From: Filomicrobium sp.
Lineage (GTDB): Bacteria > Pseudomonadota > Alphaproteobacteria > Rhizobiales > Hyphomicrobiaceae
DNA: 64,000 bases
Assembly (NCBI GenBank): GCA_017792465.1
Contig: CP051234.1
Span: forward strand, 994,606-1,058,605
Direction of reading: 5' to 3'
The translations under genes were made by a program, and so were the position numbers. Below the pieces are notes generated by a model. That model was not told the DNA's origin. It searched no databases and saw only the letters and a list, made by a program, of their open reading frames with translations. This document shows, in pieces, positions 10,749 through 19,292 of this stretch (positions within the stretch are counted from its first letter, which is position 1; every line of letters begins with the position of its first letter).

Positions 10749-10970
10749 GACTTGAAGTACCTTTGAAGGTTGCAGCAACATCGCAGACCGGTCGCCGGTG
10801 GGGGCGAGTAACTACCCATCGAACGCGTTTGCGTCAACTGATCGGCCGGAAACAACGGATGGCTAGCCATCGCTGCGTTTTGGTGGTTTGAATTCGCAAC
10901 CCTCGCTATTCGTTTTGCGGCGGCGATCGAGACCTGGACAAAGTCCTTGGGGGACACGGGAGACAGTTTC

Positions 10971-12134
10971 ATGGATATCGCAACGGCTCGTTCGCGACGG
11001 ACGATCCCTTTGGTCCTGCTGGCCAGTTGCTTTCTTGCGGCCTGCGATCAGGGCCAAAAGAACAAAATGCCGGCACAGCCGCCCGCCTCGGTCGTCGTGA
11101 CGCCGGTGGAGTTGAGGGACCTGACTTCGGAACGTACTTTTACCGGTCGTATCGAGGCTATCGACAAGGTGCAAATTCGCGCGCGCGTGCAAGGTTTCCT
11201 GAAATCACGCCGTTTTGAAGAGGGCGCGGAAGTCAAGAAGGACGAACTCTTGTTCGAAATCGAGCCGGAACCGTTCGAGTTGGCCGTGCAGGAGGCCGAG
11301 GCCAACGTAACGAGTGCGAAGGCCGCCAAGACGCTGGCCGAACAGACCTTCGGGCGCACCGAAGAGCTCGTTAAGCGCAATACGTCTTCTCGCGCGTCGC
11401 TTGATGAAGCCCGCTCGACACTGGCGCAGGCGCAAGCGAGCCTGCAGGCGCGGACGGCGGAGCTTGAGACGGCTCGTCTCAACCTCAGCTATACGAAGAT
11501 CTCAGCCCCGATGGACGGTCGGGTCGGGCGTGCAGCCTATTCGGTTGGCAACCTTGTCGGTCCTGACAGCAATCCTCTTGTCGCGCTCGTCTCGCAAGAT
11601 CCTGTCTACGCGAGCTTTCCTGTGCCGCAGTGGCTGCTTTTACAGGTGCGCAAATCGGGGCAAGGACCCGACAGCGTCATTGTGAAACTCAAGCTGGCTG
11701 ATGGCTCTTTATACAAGCACTCGGGCGCGATCGAGTTTACCGACGTGCAAGCGACGTCGGCAACCGACTCGGTTCTGGTGCGAGCGAAAATGCCAAACCC
11801 GGATCGGCTCCTGGTCGACCAGCAGTTGATCAATGTGCAGGTGATCCGCAAGAAGCCTGAAAAGAAGCTCGTCATTTCGCAATCGGCTCTGCTGCTCGAC
11901 CAGCAAGGCGCTTATGTGCTTGCCGTCGACAAGGACAACAAAGTGCAGATCAAGCGGATCACCGTGGGCGAACAGCGCGGGCCGCTGATCGTTGTCGAAA
12001 GCGGCGTCAAGGAAGGCGACCGGGTGATCATCAGTGGGCACCAGAAGGCGAGGCCGGGCGCGCCGGTCGCGCCGCAGATGGCCAGTGACGAAACCAAAAG
12101 CGTCATGACCGGCGCCGAGGCGAAGAAGCCATGA
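10971..12134 (+). CDS. RND efflux periplasmic adaptor lipoprotein (AcrA/MexA family)
   Basis: A 387-residue membrane-fusion protein bridging the RND pump to an outer-membrane channel. It has a lipoprotein signal with lipobox LAAC (Cys25), a barrel-sandwich half-lipoyl domain (near 60-85 and 175-205), a long alpha-hairpin between them, and a beta-barrel and membrane-proximal domain after that. The ATG at 10971 has GGAG eight bases ahead; an upstream in-frame TTG at 10947 is less likely. The stop overlaps the pump start by ATGA, so the two are coupled. No local TetR regulator or TolC-like channel is present, so the outer component must be encoded elsewhere. Confidence 0.93.
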
Positions 12135-15100
12135 TCTTCGATATCTTCATTCAGCGCCCGCGCCTTGCGATGGTCGTGTCGCTGGTGATCACGCTGGCGG
12201 GTGCCATCGCGATCATGGTCATCCCTGTCGCGCAATATCCCGACATCGCACCGCCGACCGTCCGCGTTACCGGAACATATGCGGGTGCGGATGCGAAAAC
12301 GGTTGAGGAAAGCGTCGCCCAGCCGCTTGAGAACGCCATCAACGGCGTCTCGGGCATGCGTTATATGAAGTCGACGTCCGTCAATGACGGCTCGTATACG
12401 CTGAACGTCAGCTTCGACCTTTCGGTTGATCCCGACATCGCGACAGTCAACGTGCAAAACCGCGCGAGCCTTGCGGAAGCCAAGCTGCCACAAGAGGTGC
12501 GCACGACAGGACTGACGATTGCCAAGGTCTCGACCGACCTGTTGCAGGTCTTCATGTTCCATTCGGAAAAGCCGGAACATGACCAACTCTTTCTGTCGAA
12601 CTTCGTCACGCTCAATATCATTGATGAATTAAAACGCGTGCCCGGCGTGGGTGATGCGTCCATCTTTGGTGCGCGGGATTATTCGATGCGCATCTGGATC
12701 GATCCGCAAAAGCTTGCCAACTATGGGCTCGCTGTCACGGAAGTGATCTCGGCGGTGCAGTCGCAGAACGTTCAGGCTGCCGCCGGGCGCATCGGCGCGG
12801 CGCCATTGAGTGACGATCAGCGCATGCAGCTGACGATCACCACCAAAGGCCGACTGACGTCTGCGAAGGAATTCGGCGACATCGTCTTGCGCAGCGAAAC
12901 CGACGGCTCTTTCGTACGCCTGAAGGATGTTGCCCGCATCGAACTGCAGGCGGCGAATTTCGACACCGTTGCGCGTTTCTCCGGCAGGCCCGTTGCGCCC
13001 GTCGGCATCTATCTTTCGCCGGGCTCGAACGCTGTGGCTGTCGCCCAGGCTGTCTCGCAGCGGCTGGAGGATCTGAAATCCCGCTTCCCTGAAGGGGTTT
13101 CCTACTCCTACATCTATAATACCGCGGCCTTCGTCTCGGCGATGATGGAAAAGGTCGTCAGCACGCTCCTTGAAGCTTTCGTGCTGGTGGCGATCGTCGT
13201 GTTCTTGTTCCTTGGCCGGTTGCGTCCGACGCTCATTCCATTGCTGGCGGTTCCTGTCGCGGTCATCGGCACGTTTGCGGTGCTGCTCGCGTTTGGATAT
13301 TCGGCCAATACCATTTCGCTCCTCGCCCTGGTTCTCGCTATCGGGATCGTGGTCGACGACGCCATTATCGTTGTCGAGAACGTCGAGCGAGTCATGGAGG
13401 AGGAGCCGGAGCTCACTCCGGCCGAAGCGACACACAAAGCCATGAGCGAGATCGCCGGACCGGTCATCGCCATTACGCTGGTGCTGCTGTCGGTCTTCGT
13501 GCCGATTGCCTTCCTTCCGGGTTCCAGCGGCGTCTTGTTCCGGCAGTTCGCGATTACGATTGCGGCTGCGATGGTGATCTCGGCGATCAACGCGCTGACG
13601 CTCTCGCCCGCACTGTGCTCGGTGCTCTTGCGTCCTGGTCACCCCAGCGGCGTCATGCGGGCCATCACGGGGGCTATCAACAGCGTTGGCGATGGTTATG
13701 CGTGGATCGTCGGGCGGCTCGTTCGCGTTGCCATCCTGAGCATCGTTTTGCTAGGCGGGCTATTCGCCGGCACTTACTACCTTTTCGAGCGCACGCCTTC
13801 AGGGTTCCTGCCCGAAGAGGACAAAGGCTACCTCATCACGATCTTCAATCTGCCGTCGGGCGCTTCGCTTAATCGGACCAGCGCCGCAGCCGCCAAGGCC
13901 GAAGCCATCATCTCGAAAGACCCGGCTGTCGATAACGTCGTGTCGATCATCGGCCTCGACTTTCTTGGCGGCGGAACCTCGCCCAGCGCCGGCGTCATGT
14001 TCGTGCGCCTCAAGGACTATGAAGAGCGCAAAACGCGAGACATGCATGCTTCCGTTGTCGCGCCTCGGCTCGCGCAAGCCTTGGCACCGCTGCCAGATGG
14101 TTTCTTCCTGGCTCTAAACCCTCCGGCGATTTCGGGCATCGGTCAGGCCGGCGGCTTCGAATACATCCTGGAAGGCATTGAGGGGCAGGAACCGACGTCG
14201 CTGGCGGCGACCATGCGCGGCCTCATCGTCGCGGCCAACCAGCGCCCTGAACTCGCCCGCGTATTCTCGACTTACGATGCCGCAACACCACAGATCAAAC
14301 TTGAGATCGACCGCGACAAGGTTCAGGTCCTCGGTATCGACCTGTCCAATCTGTTTGGATCGCTACAGGCGACGTTGGGCGGATTCTACGTCAACGACTT
14401 CAATCTCTTCGGGCGCACCTGGACCGTGCGCATGCTGGCGGAAAAAGAATACCGCGCGTCGATCGATTCCATTTATGCGATCCAGGTCAAAACCCGCACA
14501 GGCGAGATGGTGCCGTTATCGGCGGTGGCCCGCGCGACGCTCGAGACCGGTCCGCGTTCGGTCGTGCGCTATAACAATTATCGCGCCGTATCGATCAACG
14601 GCAGTCCGGCGCCGGGACGCGGCGATGGCGAAGCGATCGCTGCCATGGCTGCGCTGTCGAAGTCGACGCTGCCTGCGGGCTATGCGTTCGAATGGACGGG
14701 GCAGGCGCTTGAGCAGACGCTTTCTGCCGGTCAGACGCCGATCGTGATCGGGCTGGCCGTCGTCTTTGCCTACCTGTTTCTGGTGGCGCTTTATGAAAGC
14801 TGGAACGTGCCGGTCCCGGTGCTGTTGTCGGTGATTGTCGCCATCCTCGGAGCTATGCTGGCGTTGTACTTCTCACGCATGAGTTTTGTGCTTTACGCCC
14901 AGATCGGCATCGTCGTCCTCATTGCGCTGGCCGCCAAGAACTCGATCCTGATGACGGAGTTCTCGCTGGCGCGGCGGGCCGAGGGGCAAAGCATTCTCGA
15001 TTCCGCCGTGAGTGGCGCGCATCAACGCTTCCGACCGGTGATGATGACGAGTTTCGCCTTCATCGCCGGCCTCATCCCGCTGGTTCTCGCCACCGGTCCG

Positions 15101-15286
15101 GGCGCCGACAGCATGTACGCGGTCGGTCTGCCAGTGCTTGCCGGGATGATCTTTGCTTCGGTGTTCGGGATCTTCCTTATTCCCATGCTGTACGTGGTCT
15201 TCCAACGGCTTCGCGAAGCCGTGACCGGGCGGCGGGGAGAGCGCAAGCGTGCCGAAGACGGCGCCGTCGCTAATTCGGATCGCTGA
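12131..15286 (+). CDS. RND multidrug efflux transporter, HAE-1 family (AcrB/MexB-like)
   Basis: A 1051-residue inner-membrane proton/drug antiporter, full length for the family. The N-terminus [13 protein letters not shown], the paired proton-relay aspartates in the fourth membrane helix ([15 protein letters not shown]), the lysine in the tenth helix (LAAKNSILM) and the two large periplasmic porter loops are all present. HAE-1 pumps export lipophilic drugs, dyes or detergents; the specificity cannot be read. It overlaps the adaptor gene by four bases. Its stop codon lies at the edge of a 15-bp tandem repeat. Confidence 0.95.
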
Positions 15287-15321
15287 GCCTCGGAAAGATG
15301 AGCCTCGGAAAGATGAGCCTC
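15285..15321. repeat. 15-bp tandem repeat at the RND pump stop codon
   Basis: GAGCCTCGGAAAGAT occurs at 15285-15299 and 15300-15314, and its first seven bases again at 15315-15321. The TGA stop of the pump gene (15284-15286) shares two bases with the first unit. This looks like replication slippage in the untranslated region. Confidence 0.75.
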
Positions 15322-15478
15322 ACGGCGGCTATTGGGTCCCATTGGCTTGGCCGGTTCGCGCGTAAGAGCCGGTCAGATCTCTTGGGCACGGATGATACCA
15401 GCTGGAAAGGACAAGCTTTCGCCAAGCTCGGCGGGCAGCTTGTCCTCAATTTTTCGCGAACTGCCAAACCGAGGTGAG

Positions 15479-16846
15479 ATGCCAGCTGCTTCCCCGACAG
15501 CCGCCGCAAGGGTGCACATAGCGTGCGGCCCCTGTTCTGGACCTGCGTTCCGCCTCAGCCATTTTCAACCCTGGCGCGGGCTGTTGGCCTTGATTGCGAT
15601 GATGGGAATGGTTGTCATGTCCAATTCTCCTGCCTTATCTGCGGCGCAATCGTCGGCCCAGGGCTCGGCCGTCGAGACCGGTGCGAAAGTTCTGGCGCGC
15701 AGCGGTTTCGCCATGCTGTCGGGCAAGCGTGTCGGCCTCATCACCAACCAAACCGGGCGCGTCGGCGATCGCCATCTCGTCGACCTGATGGCGGAAGCCG
15801 ACAATGTGCACCTCACCGCCATCTATGCTCCCGAGCATGGGTTTCGTGGAGATGTCGAGGCCGGGAAAAAGGTTTCCGGCCGTGTCGATGAAAAGACTGG
15901 AATAAGGGTCTTTAGCCTCTACGGCGACACGCGGAAGCCGACGCAATCGATGCTGCGCAATATCGATGTCTTGGTGTTCGACATCCAGGATATCGGCGTC
16001 CGGTTCTACACCTACATCTCGACGATGGGACTCGCTATGCAGGCAGCCGCCGAGAAGGGAATCCCGTTCATCGTGCTGGACCGGCCCAACCCGCTCGGGG
16101 GCACATATGTCTCGGGCTTCGTTCTCAACCCGCGCTACACCTCGTTCGTCGGGCAATACCCTCTGCCGATCGTGCATGGCATGACGGTCGGCGAATTGGC
16201 ATTGATGATCAAGGGTCAGGCTTGGCTTTCCGGCCTGAAGAAACTCGACCTCCTCGTGATCAAGCTTGAGGGATGGAACCGTGCGCTTCGATGGCAGGAT
16301 CTTGGCCGGGACTGGGTCGCAACCAGCCCCAACATTCCCTCGTTTGAATCGGCCCTGCTTTATCCCGGCATTGGCATCGTCGGAGAAACAGCCGTCAACG
16401 AGGGTCGCGGCACGGACGGTCCTTTTACGCGCTTCGGCGCGCCGTGGCTCGATGCGGAAAAGTTGGCGCAGCGCTTGTCGGCCCTGCGACTGCCGGGCGT
16501 GCGATTTGAGGCGACGGTCTACAAGCCCCGCTCCATTCCAGGCGTCGCAGCGAACCCGCGTCACCTGAAAGAGCGCGTCAGGGCCGTGCGCGTCTTCATC
16601 ACAGATCCCGATGCTGTCGAGCCGCTCGAAATCGGGATGCATGCTCTTGCGTTTCTTGTTCCCGAGGCGCAGAAGGCGGGGGTGCGAAAGTTCTTTCCCA
16701 ACCGGCGCATGTTCCATCTGATTTCCGGGGACGGGCGGCTATTGCGACAGCTTAGGGCGGGTTGGAGCGGATCTCGGATTATTGCCAGCTGGCAGGATGA
16801 ACTGGCGCGTTTCAAGGAGAAGCGTCGCCGTTATCTCATTTATTGA
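15479..16846 (+). CDS. namZ: DUF1343 exo-beta-N-acetylmuramidase (NamZ-like), secreted
   Basis: A 455-residue exported protein. It has a signal-like hydrophobic stretch (about 33-55, GLLALIAMMGMVVM, ending ALSA) and then the DUF1343 body with GLITNQTG, the hallmark APEHGFRG motif, FSLYGDTRKPT, DIQDIGVRFYTY and LDRPNPLGG. Family members studied in other phyla remove terminal N-acetylmuramic acid from cell-wall fragments, so the role here is probably peptidoglycan recycling or turnover. The ATG at 15479 has GAGG four bases ahead; the frame could start as early as 15332. No other MurNAc-catabolic genes are nearby, and the next gene encodes the channel fusion. Confidence 0.85.
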   Translation: MPAASPTAAARVHIACGPCSGPAFRLSHFQPWRGLLALIAMMGMVVMSNSPALSAAQSSAQGSAVETGAKVLARSGFAMLSGKRVGLITNQTGRVGDRHLVDLMAEADNVHLTAIYAPEHGFRGDVEAGKKVSGRVDEKTGIRVFSLYGDTRKPTQSMLRNIDVLVFDIQDIGVRFYTYISTMGLAMQAAAEKGIPFIVLDRPNPLGGTYVSGFVLNPRYTSFVGQYPLPIVHGMTVGELALMIKGQAWLSGLKKLDLLVIKLEGWNRALRWQDLGRDWVATSPNIPSFESALLYPGIGIVGETAVNEGRGTDGPFTRFGAPWLDAEKLAQRLSALRLPGVRFEATVYKPRSIPGVAANPRHLKERVRAVRVFITDPDAVEPLEIGMHALAFLVPEAQKAGVRKFFPNRRMFHLISGDGRLLRQLRAGWSGSRIIASWQDELARFKEKRRRYLIY

Positions 16847-16892
16847 ATTCACGGGTCAGTAGTTCGGTTTTGACGTGCTTTGGGGGCTAGCA

Positions 16893-19292
16893 ATGCGTCT
16901 GTGCATCGTTCGTGTGTTGGGGGCGGCCGCGCTCGGGTGCGCCGCGTTACTCAGCCGATTCGTTTTGAAAACTCATGCGGCCACGATATTGGCCGTGCTG
17001 GTTATTCTTTTTTCCATTAAGGTCGTTTCGCAAGCGAAGGCGCAAGATGAGGCCGCTGCGGCGACACGGCCCCCGCAAACTGTCGCCGTTTTGCTTTCCC
17101 GGCGCACCGACCGTTGCTTCACCAATGGCTATGACGAAGCCATCCGGAAAATGATGCTGCGCGAACGCGACCGCATTAATGCCCGCGGCGGCATCAAAGG
17201 CGCGCCGTTGGAGGTCAAGTTCTTCGAGGCGGAACGCGGGACTGGCACCACCGAGCAAGAGTTCGACGCTGCGGTGTCGACGGCGCGCGAAGCTTTACAG
17301 CAAAGCGAATTGCTGGCGGTCGTCGGGCTTGCAAGTTCCGACCATGTCAAACGGATCGTTGAAGCCGTCGGCAACGAACTCACGAAAAGCAACATCGCCT
17401 ATATCGCTGACAATTCAGCAAGCGATGTCTTTCAGGATTACCCGACGGTCTTTTCCACCCGGCCAGCGCAAACAGGCGCGGATGGGCGGGCGCGTATCGT
17501 CGCCGAATTCTTAAAGACGCAAGGGGCCGCACGCGTTGGCGTGTTCCTGAATGAAGGGCGCGAATATTCCAAGGCTTTTGGTAACGACCTGATCGACCGG
17601 CTCGGTCAGGACAAGATTGCCTGGGTCGGTCGACACGACCAATTCAACGGCTCAGATGAAGCCGACGGCCTTGATGCCCGGATCGCGGCGCTCAAAGCCA
17701 ACGAACCTGACTTTGTGGTCACCTCGACGATGTCGTCGCAGGCTGAGAAAATCATCGAAAAGATGGGCGAGACAGGACTGCGTCCAAGAGTGTTCGTGCT
17801 CGGCAGCCTTAGCAGCATGAAGCAGTCGGTGCTTGATAACTATCCCAGCGATATCTTTGAACTCACGACGGACGATCTTCCCGAAGTCTTCAATTCGAAA
17901 CTGGGAAACCTCGTCCAGCAAGGCGAGCCTGGCGAATGGGTTTTCGAAGGTCGCCCGGTTGATGAGGCCAAGGGCTGGTCGGATGGCCAGTGCAAGCCGC
18001 GCGACGAGGGCGCCGAAGACCGCGATCCGTTGGATGCAAAAAACCTCAAAGCGATCAAGCGTGGCGCGCAGTACGCCGACGTTCTGGCGATGATCGCTGC
18101 GGGCGCCTCTGATGCCCCGGCGGAAGGAACAATTGCCGACAGACGCAAGGCGGTGGTGTCAGCGCTGAAGGATCGGTTTGCTGCCGGCAAGGGGGCATTT
18201 CGCGGCGAGTTCAACATCTGGTCATTCGATCCGCAATCGCGCGTCGCCGTGCGGCCGCTCTTCGTTGTGATCCGGCCGCCGACCATCAAAGCCCGGCAGC
18301 TGGCGCAACAGCAATTTCTGCGGCTCCGCGACAACTCGCTTCAGAAGATCGATACCTTGTATCTCGATATCGATTTGATCCGGGCGCACCGGGTCGATGA
18401 AAACGAGAAGACATTTTTTGCCGAGTTCTACCTGGCGCTTCGCAAGAACGCCGGCGCCGACATCTCGCGCCTTGAATTCACCAACGCCTATCTCAATCCG
18501 TTGAATGCCAATGGCGTGAGCCACTCGATCTCGGATCGGGCGAAGTCGCGCACAGGCGGCAGGCACCTCATCATCCAAGAGCTGCACGATGGGAACGACA
18601 ACGCAGCATTTCCGGACCGGATGCAGATCTACCGCGTTGCCGGCCGCTTCCTGTTTGACCCTGACCTTTCAAACTATCCGTTCGACAAGCAGCAATTCTC
18701 GATCGACATTCAGCCGCGCAGTGGGGCGGGTTCGTTTGTCATTCAGCCGCCTCCCGACAATCTGCGGGATGGGACAGTCGATTCCGATGACTGGCAGCCG
18801 GTCAGCAAGTTCGTCGGTGCCGGCGAAGACTTCGTGCCGATGATCGATGCCTTTACGCACGCGCCCAGCGTCGTACCGTTCTACACCTCGAAATTCGTCT
18901 GGGTGATGAAGCGGGAGGTGACCGACTATCTGTTGCGGGTTGGCGTACCTTTGGCGTTCATCCTGATCGTCGCCTACGTGTCGATCTTTATCCCGCAAAG
19001 CAATTTCGAGGCGATTGTCACGATCCAGGTGACGGCGCTGTTGTCGGCCGTTGCTCTTTATCTGTCGCTGCCGCAGCTGGAGGCCGACACGGCCACGCTG
19101 TCCGACCGTATGTTCCTCCTCGATTATCTCCTCGTGAGTTTGATGATCGTTATCTCGATTGCGCGGATCAACAAGTTCGTCGTCCGCAACAAATGGCTGC
19201 GGGGCGGCCTCTATTGGCTGCATATCATCGGAGCCCCGATCGCGGTTGCAGGCACGATTCTCTACCTGAGGCATATGACGCTGACGACCTGA
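16893..19292 (+). CDS. Periplasmic-binding-protein / pentameric ligand-gated ion channel fusion
   Basis: A 799-residue predicted membrane receptor. An N-terminal hydrophobic export region ends near AKAQ (residue 50). Residues 58-455 form a type 1 periplasmic binding fold of the LIVBP kind (VAVLLSRRTDRC, GLASSD, TRPAQTGADG, FVVTST). Residues about 465-675 form the beta-sandwich ligand domain of Cys-loop-type channels, with YPFDKQ at 595-600 and no Cys pair, as in other prokaryotic members. Four membrane helices follow: M1 679-700, M2 705-726, M3 740-758, M4 772-792. M2 keeps the GLIC-like pattern E-A-x-V-T-x-x-V-T (E706, T710, T714), which suggests a cation-selective pore. The ATG at 16893 has GGGGG ahead; a GTG at 16875 is an alternative. 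The ligand is unknown; it may be an amino acid or amide, as for LIVBP relatives. Confidence 0.85.
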   Translation: MRLCIVRVLGAAALGCAALLSRFVLKTHAATILAVLVILFSIKVVSQAKAQDEAAAATRPPQTVAVLLSRRTDRCFTNGYDEAIRKMMLRERDRINARGGIKGAPLEVKFFEAERGTGTTEQEFDAAVSTAREALQQSELLAVVGLASSDHVKRIVEAVGNELTKSNIAYIADNSASDVFQDYPTVFSTRPAQTGADGRARIVAEFLKTQGAARVGVFLNEGREYSKAFGNDLIDRLGQDKIAWVGRHDQFNGSDEADGLDARIAALKANEPDFVVTSTMSSQAEKIIEKMGETGLRPRVFVLGSLSSMKQSVLDNYPSDIFELTTDDLPEVFNSKLGNLVQQGEPGEWVFEGRPVDEAKGWSDGQCKPRDEGAEDRDPLDAKNLKAIKRGAQYADVLAMIAAGASDAPAEGTIADRRKAVVSALKDRFAAGKGAFRGEFNIWSFDPQSRVAVRPLFVVIRPPTIKARQLAQQQFLRLRDNSLQKIDTLYLDIDLIRAHRVDENEKTFFAEFYLALRKNAGADISRLEFTNAYLNPLNANGVSHSISDRAKSRTGGRHLIIQELHDGNDNAAFPDRMQIYRVAGRFLFDPDLSNYPFDKQQFSIDIQPRSGAGSFVIQPPPDNLRDGTVDSDDWQPVSKFVGAGEDFVPMIDAFTHAPSVVPFYTSKFVWVMKREVTDYLLRVGVPLAFILIVAYVSIFIPQSNFEAIVTIQVTALLSAVALYLSLPQLEADTATLSDRMFLLDYLLVSLMIVISIARINKFVVRNKWLRGGLYWLHIIGAPIAVAGTILYLRHMTLTT

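Follow-up and report, generated by a model that had tools for sequence, protein, structure and literature searches.

GLIC and ELIC are bacterial members of the pentameric pLGIC superfamily. GLIC is gated by protons, and to our knowledge little has been established about what bacterial pLGICs do physiologically. According to the available parts of its descriptions, DeCLIC opens when calcium is removed, has no periplasmic binding protein (PBP) and bears a flexible, calcium-binding N-terminal domain with a modulatory role (PMC9897478, PMC12664993). Fusions of a type-I PBP (PBP-I) to such a channel have also been described: the accessible part of Tasneem et al. (2004; PMC549065) reports PBP-I fusions to ART-LGIC in Magnetospirillum magnetotacticum and Bradyrhizobium japonicum, for which a chemoreceptor-like role was proposed. 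As far as its accessible part goes, the survey of Jaiteh et al. (2016; PMC4795631) set aside the sequence ends beyond the two signature domains and states that genomes are the sole basis for associations with further domains.

We found that the gene at 16893-19292 of the window, which is the whole 64,000-nucleotide stretch of Filomicrobium sp. DNA that was analysed, is a further case of this already described PBP-I::pLGIC fusion architecture. A sequence-only reading of the same DNA had stated that some PBP-fused members were noted in surveys, and the accessible part of Tasneem et al. bears this out. The frame is open for 799 codons from an ATG and is followed by a stop codon; an alternative in-frame GTG start lies at 16875. 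The host is a soil or water bacterium, and its genome comprises 4.47 Mb in a single contig. The encoded protein of 799 aa is laid out as a putative signal peptide, a PBP-I domain, a pLGIC-type beta sandwich and four membrane helices, with the coordinates collected in Table 1.

Table 1. Positions of the fusion gene, its features and the related type M genes
Feature	Position	Strand	Basis or remark
Fusion gene PBP-I::pLGIC	16893..19292	+	65 distinct sequences, itself included, have the same architecture
Putative signal peptide, residues 1-51, hydrophobic stretch ending ...QAKAQ/DEA	16893..17045	+	Inferred from sequence and alignment by eye
Type-I periplasmic binding protein domain, ~residues 62-461	17076..18275	+	Peripla_BP_6, AF2, Foldseek to LivK 3td9
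Cys75, likely disulfide partner of Cys367	17115..17117	+	Co-occurrence in 65 sequences
Cys367	17991..17993	+	Co-occurrence with Cys75 in 65 sequences
pLGIC extracellular beta sandwich, ~residues 473-674	18309..18914	+	AF2 strands; ELIC/GLIC alignments
Pro-loop YPFD, residues 595-598	18675..18686	+	P596 and D598 in 65/65; superfamily signature F/YPxD
Pre-M1 Arg674, putative salt-bridge partner of the Pro-loop Asp	18912..18914	+	65/65; pair from PMC4795631 (available part)
M1 helix, residues 677-699, contains P686	18921..18989	+	AF2
M2 pore helix, residues 702-725: E706 (-2'), T710 (2'), T714 (6'), L717 (9'), A721 (13')	18996..19067	+	AF2; conservation
M3 helix, residues 736-759	19098..19169	+	AF2
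M4 helix, residues 767-798	19191..19286	+	AF2
Type M, PBP-I + pLGIC-like sandwich + MscS, 1022-1086 aa	L163, L164, L179-L184 (alphaproteobacteria); L212:3474-6542 (Azospirillum sp. B510, WP_012976639.1)		Pro-loop Asp replaced

The AF2 model of the window protein, built as a single chain from a 28-row alignment, showed a mean pLDDT of 81.1 and a pTM of 0.76 and contained two folded parts and four helices. A LIVBP-like domain at residues 58-455, a beta domain carrying YPFDKQ and four C-terminal membrane helices had been proposed from the letters alone; the model agrees on the first with residues 62-461, places the motif (residues 595-600) within the sandwich and reproduces the four helices. Upon submission of this model to Foldseek, the PBP end matched LivK (3td9, E 2.2e-17) and T1r3 among the top matches, and the channel end matched DeCLIC, GABA-A and GLIC with E values of ~1e-14; no target exceeded a TMq of 0.39 among the 50 matches listed. 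No PDB chain spanned both halves of the protein, as 19 of 19 matches of the full-length profile covered the PBP or the channel part alone. The proposed fusion itself held up, since the same architecture is shared by 65 distinct sequences and both profiles and Foldseek find pLGICs. This set of 65 was drawn from 117 frames, each 600 aa or longer and scoring >250 bits with the full-length profile, with identical ones removed and the window protein included.

The PBP-I domain was readily recognized by Pfam, as the earlier reading had expected of Peripla_BP_6: this model matched residues 93-313 of the window protein with an E value of 3.3e-11 (43.9 bits against a cut-off of 31.7), and ANF_receptor was likewise above its cut-off (E 4.6e-8). 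All 28 aligned lineage members matched Peripla_BP_6 at E ≤0.1. The domain is less conserved than the channel, with mean column identities of 48% and 61%, respectively, in the 28-row alignment. Cys75 and Cys367 were both present in 53 of the 65 sequences and both absent in 12, and one was never found alone. Being gained or lost only as a pair is as expected of a disulfide, and a Cys75-Cys367 disulfide is likely on this pattern, which two changes on the tree explain, too few for a test. With respect to the pocket, Ser149 aligned gaplessly to LivJ Ser79 and was kept in 55 of 66 rows, and the position of LivJ Thr102 was Ala in the window PBP and Val in 50 of 66 rows (gapless mapping only). We take Ser79 and Thr102 of LivJ to be contacts for the alpha-amino acid in LIVBP. 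With the Thr102-type position lost, the window PBP may bind something unusual, or nothing, and we suggest with low confidence that its ligand is other than a canonically bound alpha-amino acid.

To assign the channel part, we compared it with known structures and family models. A phmmer search of PDB chains with the window protein retrieved the ELIC/GLIC chimera, ELIC and DeCLIC (E 5.9e-6 to 1.5e-3), and a 28-row channel profile retrieved GLIC, ELIC and DeCLIC at 1e-7 to 5e-5 among the matches listed (60 of 126). The NCBIfam model LIC matched below its cut-off (E 0.0015). In contrast, the proposed check against Pfam Neur_chan_LBD and Neur_chan_memb gave no match, whether run on the whole protein (E up to 10), on residues 464-799 alone (E up to 1) or on the aligned homologues (0/28; E up to 0.1). 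A search of the own genome with PF02931 also gave nothing; its 14 controls were silent as well, so that this search is uninformative. The misses seemingly reflect a limit of the Pfam models, because phmmer, the channel profile, LIC and Foldseek do find pLGICs.

The available part of Jaiteh et al. (2016; PMC4795631) ranks seven residues as the most conserved across pLGICs, lists in its Table 1 an F/YPxD motif with an absolutely conserved Pro, and pairs the pre-M1 Arg with the Pro-loop Asp in a salt bridge. Against this list, six of the seven residues were clear in the window protein (Y595, P596, D598, W634, R674 and P686), and P727 is probably the seventh, the Pro between M2 and M3. This last residue, part of an LP pair, is Pro in 54 of 65 sequences; the alignment puts it off the Pro column of the short pLGICs, and the loop length differs by ~2 residues. 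P596, D598, W634 (the beta9 Trp), R674, P686 (the M1 Pro) and L717 were invariant in all 65 distinct sequences, and residue 595 was Tyr in 57 and Phe in 8. R674, W634 and P686 also share alignment columns with their counterparts in other pLGICs. The cysteines of the metazoan Cys-loop are absent, with no Cys around residues 585-608; the label "Cys-loop-type" given earlier is therefore right as to pLGIC membership and loose otherwise, as this is a bacterial Pro-loop without the two cysteines.

The M2 helix was compared with that of the chimera 4yeu, whose membrane part we take to be that of GLIC. The window M2 reads FEAIVTIQVTALLSAVALYL and the chimera M2 reads YEANVTLVVSTLI. Of the GLIC pore pattern E-A-x-V-T-x-x-V-T that had been noticed, E-A-x-V-T-x-x-V stands, and the last position does not, being Thr where GLIC has Ser. 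The GLIC-type M2 carries Ile at 9' and Asn at 0', whereas the window lineage has Leu at 9' and the window protein has Ile at 0'. Across the 65 sequences, T 6', L 9' and A 13' were each invariant, and the -2' position was Glu in 52, Asp in 7, Asn in 5 and Gly in 1; it is thus acidic in 59 and not in six, the own-genome paralogue (Asn) among the latter. Lys or Arg at 0' was found in none of 66 rows. Such an acidic -2' ring, which GLIC has too, is consistent with a cation-selective pore. For comparison, the available part of Jaiteh et al. gives the M2-M3 Pro in 88%, Leu 9' in 75% and Lys/Arg 0' in 79% of pLGICs, the 0' residue not being universal.

Its sequence features place the window protein in a divergent lineage, found mostly in Hyphomicrobiaceae and marked by a paired-cysteine pattern in the PBP, by a -2' ring that is acidic in most members and by a Leu at 9' in all. 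A single-sequence scan of genome contigs detected no relative, and an alignment-based scan of genome contigs revealed 70 loci. Forty-five of these stood under Hyphomicrobium (23), Filomicrobium (10), Rhodomicrobium (1) or Hyphomicrobiaceae (11), the others under broader or doubtful titles. With the full-length query, 45 of 99 relatives matched at E 0.001, a count that includes PBP-only and short matches, and 36 of 58 genomes of the own family matched at E ≤1e-30. No match to the window protein was found by tblastn of plasmids. One further locus of the 70 is from Adhaeribacter terrigena, presumably a member of Bacteroidota, and there (L095:7794-12153) two PBP-pLGIC frames lie in tandem, which makes hetero-oligomers conceivable.

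Over the class, the full-length profile returned mostly binding-protein matches through its PBP half, with at most three candidates scored per genome, and was replaced by a channel-only profile. With this profile, one of 289 genomes of the class matched, namely the own genome, and no second genome of the same family was among the matches listed. At the level of the order, 37 of 397 genomes matched; these consisted of 20 strong window-lineage genomes (E <1e-100), three with distant PBP-bearing proteins, hereafter type B, and 14 with weak, short frames. Eighteen of 279 genomes matched in the phylum. All 21 strong channel-profile loci whose frames were checked (L132-L152) also matched the PBP profile (E ≤2e-45), and PBP-I was found by Pfam in both type B proteins checked. 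Peripla_BP_6 was carried by 7/7 long frames from the phylum survey, the frames that the Pfam check covered, and nine further matching genomes lay outside this check or had a short frame only. The PBP-I domains of type B and of these seven frames show that PBP-I::pLGIC fusions recur in several divergent lineages of Pseudomonadota. The type B loci (L153-L155) and those of the phylum survey (L204-L210) represent further divergent PBP-I::pLGIC lineages with quite different M2 helices. A tandem pair of PBP-less pLGIC genes of 374 and 351 codons was also observed (L156:113-2373). The window lineage is thus frequent in its family, yet missed by the Pfam channel models, and a literature search, chiefly of open-access papers, retrieved no study of this lineage.

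The surroundings of the gene were inspected in 44 loci, consisting of the window and 43 of the 70 loci, namely those whose flanks were usable. In the window, genes for an HlyD-type adaptor, an AcrB-type pump and a NamZ exo-muramidase precede the fusion gene on one strand (10947-19292), with 46 bases between the NamZ stop and the fusion-gene ATG, and this tight row could be one transcript. NamZ was near none of the 43 other loci examined. An RND pump gene was near 11 of the 44 loci, eight of which are Hyphomicrobium-type loci with the pump at one position; pump and NamZ were dropped as context clues on these counts. No conserved neighbour that would indicate the ligand was found in the 44 loci.

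The own genome also encodes a paralogue that is 32% identical to the window protein, lacks the Cys pair and has Asn at -2'. It lies directly downstream of a gene for a 1003-aa MscS-family protein (MscS/DUF3772; L211:3605-9161). In the paralogue sub-clade, an MscS gene was directly upstream at 5/5 loci whose upstream sequence could be used, counting the own genome; one of the five is a fragment at a contig edge, and a sixth locus has only 216 bases upstream. When searched with a profile of these five MscS sequences, neither the 70 loci nor the window showed a further MscS frame. Since the whole block around the two genes is syntenic among the sub-clade loci, the five count as one event. The position of the paralogue behind a separate MscS gene hints that both pore types may serve one solute or osmotic response.

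A second association with MscS was found within single proteins. When 240 genomes of the class were searched with the type B channel query, the matches comprised, besides the own paralogue, two frames (1041 and 1086 aa) that matched through their sandwich alone. Pfam revealed Peripla_BP_6 (E 2e-35 and 8e-34) and the MscS beta-domain (E 2.4e-18 and 6.8e-19) in these two frames and no Neur_chan match, and phmmer of one such frame retrieved YnaI and MscS. We refer to these proteins as type M. Judged by blastp, the domain between PBP and MscS is homologous to pLGIC sandwiches, with E values of 1e-18 to 8e-15 to type B and of 4.6e-6 at best to PBP-less pLGICs (two queries). The window lineage's own channel profile did not find the type M sandwich, so the link between the two runs through type B. 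In Azospirillum, PBP and sandwich of type M align collinearly with those of type B as a single unit of 568-620 residues, at 26% identity and with E values of 1e-59 to 8e-59. In five type M sequences (HPYGT twice, HAYGT, RAYGT twice), Gly takes the place of the Pro-loop Asp, the residue through which pLGICs couple their sandwich to the pore, and the Pro of the loop is retained in two. Of 98 genomes around one carrier, 22 matched at E 1e-20, six of them with near full-length type M and the others via one part only; 2 of 230 genomes of the class had a near full-length copy at E 1e-60, and nine Azospirillum plasmid records cover at least 80% of the type M query, out of 358 records with any match. 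The protein of Azospirillum sp. B510 is annotated as an ABC transporter substrate-binding protein. Its gene leads into a set of type I secretion genes (ABC, HlyD, TolC), and a VCBS-domain protein is encoded next to it (L212:3474-10015). No study of the MscS fusion was found in the same literature.

In the sandwich tree, the PBP-bearing rows (16 of the window lineage, three type B and four type M) were split from 12 PBP-less channels with a support of 100/99.8, although long branches meet there, and the full-channel tree agreed weakly (92/79). The PBP tree joined B and M (100/98) and set the window lineage apart; a single clade was not rejected (p-AU 0.182 for A+B+M and 0.089 for A+B). An independent origin of the PBP fusions was considered and dropped, because these p-AU values leave one clade standing and the sandwich tree groups all PBP-bearing rows. 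The simplest reading of these unrooted trees would be that one PBP + sandwich module is present on two kinds of pore. Its reuse as a whole on an MscS pore suggests that the two domains work as one gating unit, and it supports the idea that the whole module may control gating in the window protein too. On a wider view, which we regard as possible and somewhat short of an even chance, PBP-I and the pLGIC sandwich form a single portable ligand-gating module, more than a mere add-on to pentameric channels, that sits on a Cys-loop-type pore in the window lineage and its kin and on an MscS pore in Azospirillum and others. The latter proteins, whose Pro-loop Asp is replaced, would then be mechanosensitive-type channels gated by a ligand. 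MscS channels are heptamers, so the same sandwich would form five-fold and seven-fold rings if this were true. This is the part most worth pursuing, and the function proposed below for the window protein itself appears plausible.

We consider it somewhat probable that the window protein is a PBP-modulated, cation-selective homopentamer that is gated through its PBP by a small periplasmic solute. The protein would be exported, its leader cleaved, and five copies would form a cation-selective channel in the inner membrane, with the sandwich ring on the periplasmic face and, on top of the ring, a PBP-I clamshell for each subunit. The PBP would close on a small periplasmic solute, and the movement would pass through the PBP-sandwich joint and the contact between Asp598 of the Pro-loop and Arg674 before M1 to M2, which would then open the gate at Leu717 (9'). 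Cation entry could thereby turn the solute concentration into a voltage or a Na+/Ca2+/H+ signal. The predicted fold, the superfamily residues, the pore-lining residues and the PBP kept at all channel loci checked speak for this account. Ligand gating of this kind, which the sequence-only reading had also put forward, is a reasonable proposal that is strengthened by the reuse of the PBP + sandwich module on the MscS pore, whereas GLIC and DeCLIC, which gate without a PBP in response to protons and to calcium removal, respectively, count against it. Further points against the account are the weaker conservation of the PBP, the loss of the Thr102-type position in its pocket, the six sequences whose -2' residue is not acidic, and the lack of a conserved neighbour indicating a ligand at the 44 loci.

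These two channels lead to the rival that we regard as unlikely, yet ahead of the others, in which the PBP serves only for modulation or for docking and assembly, and the channel is triggered through its sandwich, as GLIC, DeCLIC and ELIC are, by pH, a divalent cation or an amine. The better conservation of the channel part would fit such a role, as would the modulatory N-terminal domain of DeCLIC described above; against it, the PBP is kept at all 21 strong channel loci tested and the whole module recurs on the MscS pore. A ligand-binding receptor scaffold without conduction is very improbable, given that the pore helix retains T6', L9' and A13' throughout the 65 sequences. That Pfam detects the binding protein alone might even suggest that the binding protein of an ABC transporter and a membrane protein were joined by chance or by an assembly error; this is scarcely credible and is refuted by the homologues, the architecture being shared by 65 distinct sequences drawn from many genomes and both parts being folded by AF2. 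Gating through the PBP is retained as the preferred account.

In plain terms, the window protein is a relative of the nerve-cell receptor channels with an extra outer domain of the nutrient-binding type, a design known since 2004, and its MscS-fused relatives would bear on how much of pLGIC gating resides in the sensor module and how this is re-coupled to a foreign pore. By description rather than by sequence, the fusions in the available part of Tasneem et al. (2004) resemble it in the order PBP-I, LBD and 4-TM channel and in their origin from alphaproteobacteria. GLIC and ELIC share the sandwich, the four helices and a Pro-loop without cysteines, and GLIC also the EAxVT start of M2, but both lack an N-terminal PBP. 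DeCLIC (6v4a, 9eva), the best pLGIC match of Foldseek among the matches listed, is likewise a bacterial pLGIC with an extra N-terminal domain; according to the available text, however, its extra domains are two jelly-roll lobes and no PBP. Type M (L179-L184; WP_012976639.1) has a homologous PBP + sandwich module and differs in its MscS-type pore and in the replaced Pro-loop Asp. NMDA/AMPA, mGlu and T1r receptors also carry a PBP-I-type ligand domain on a signalling membrane protein, but with another pore or a seven-helix core, and the window lineage is a bacterial parallel, in a pentameric channel, to the architecture of the glutamate receptors.
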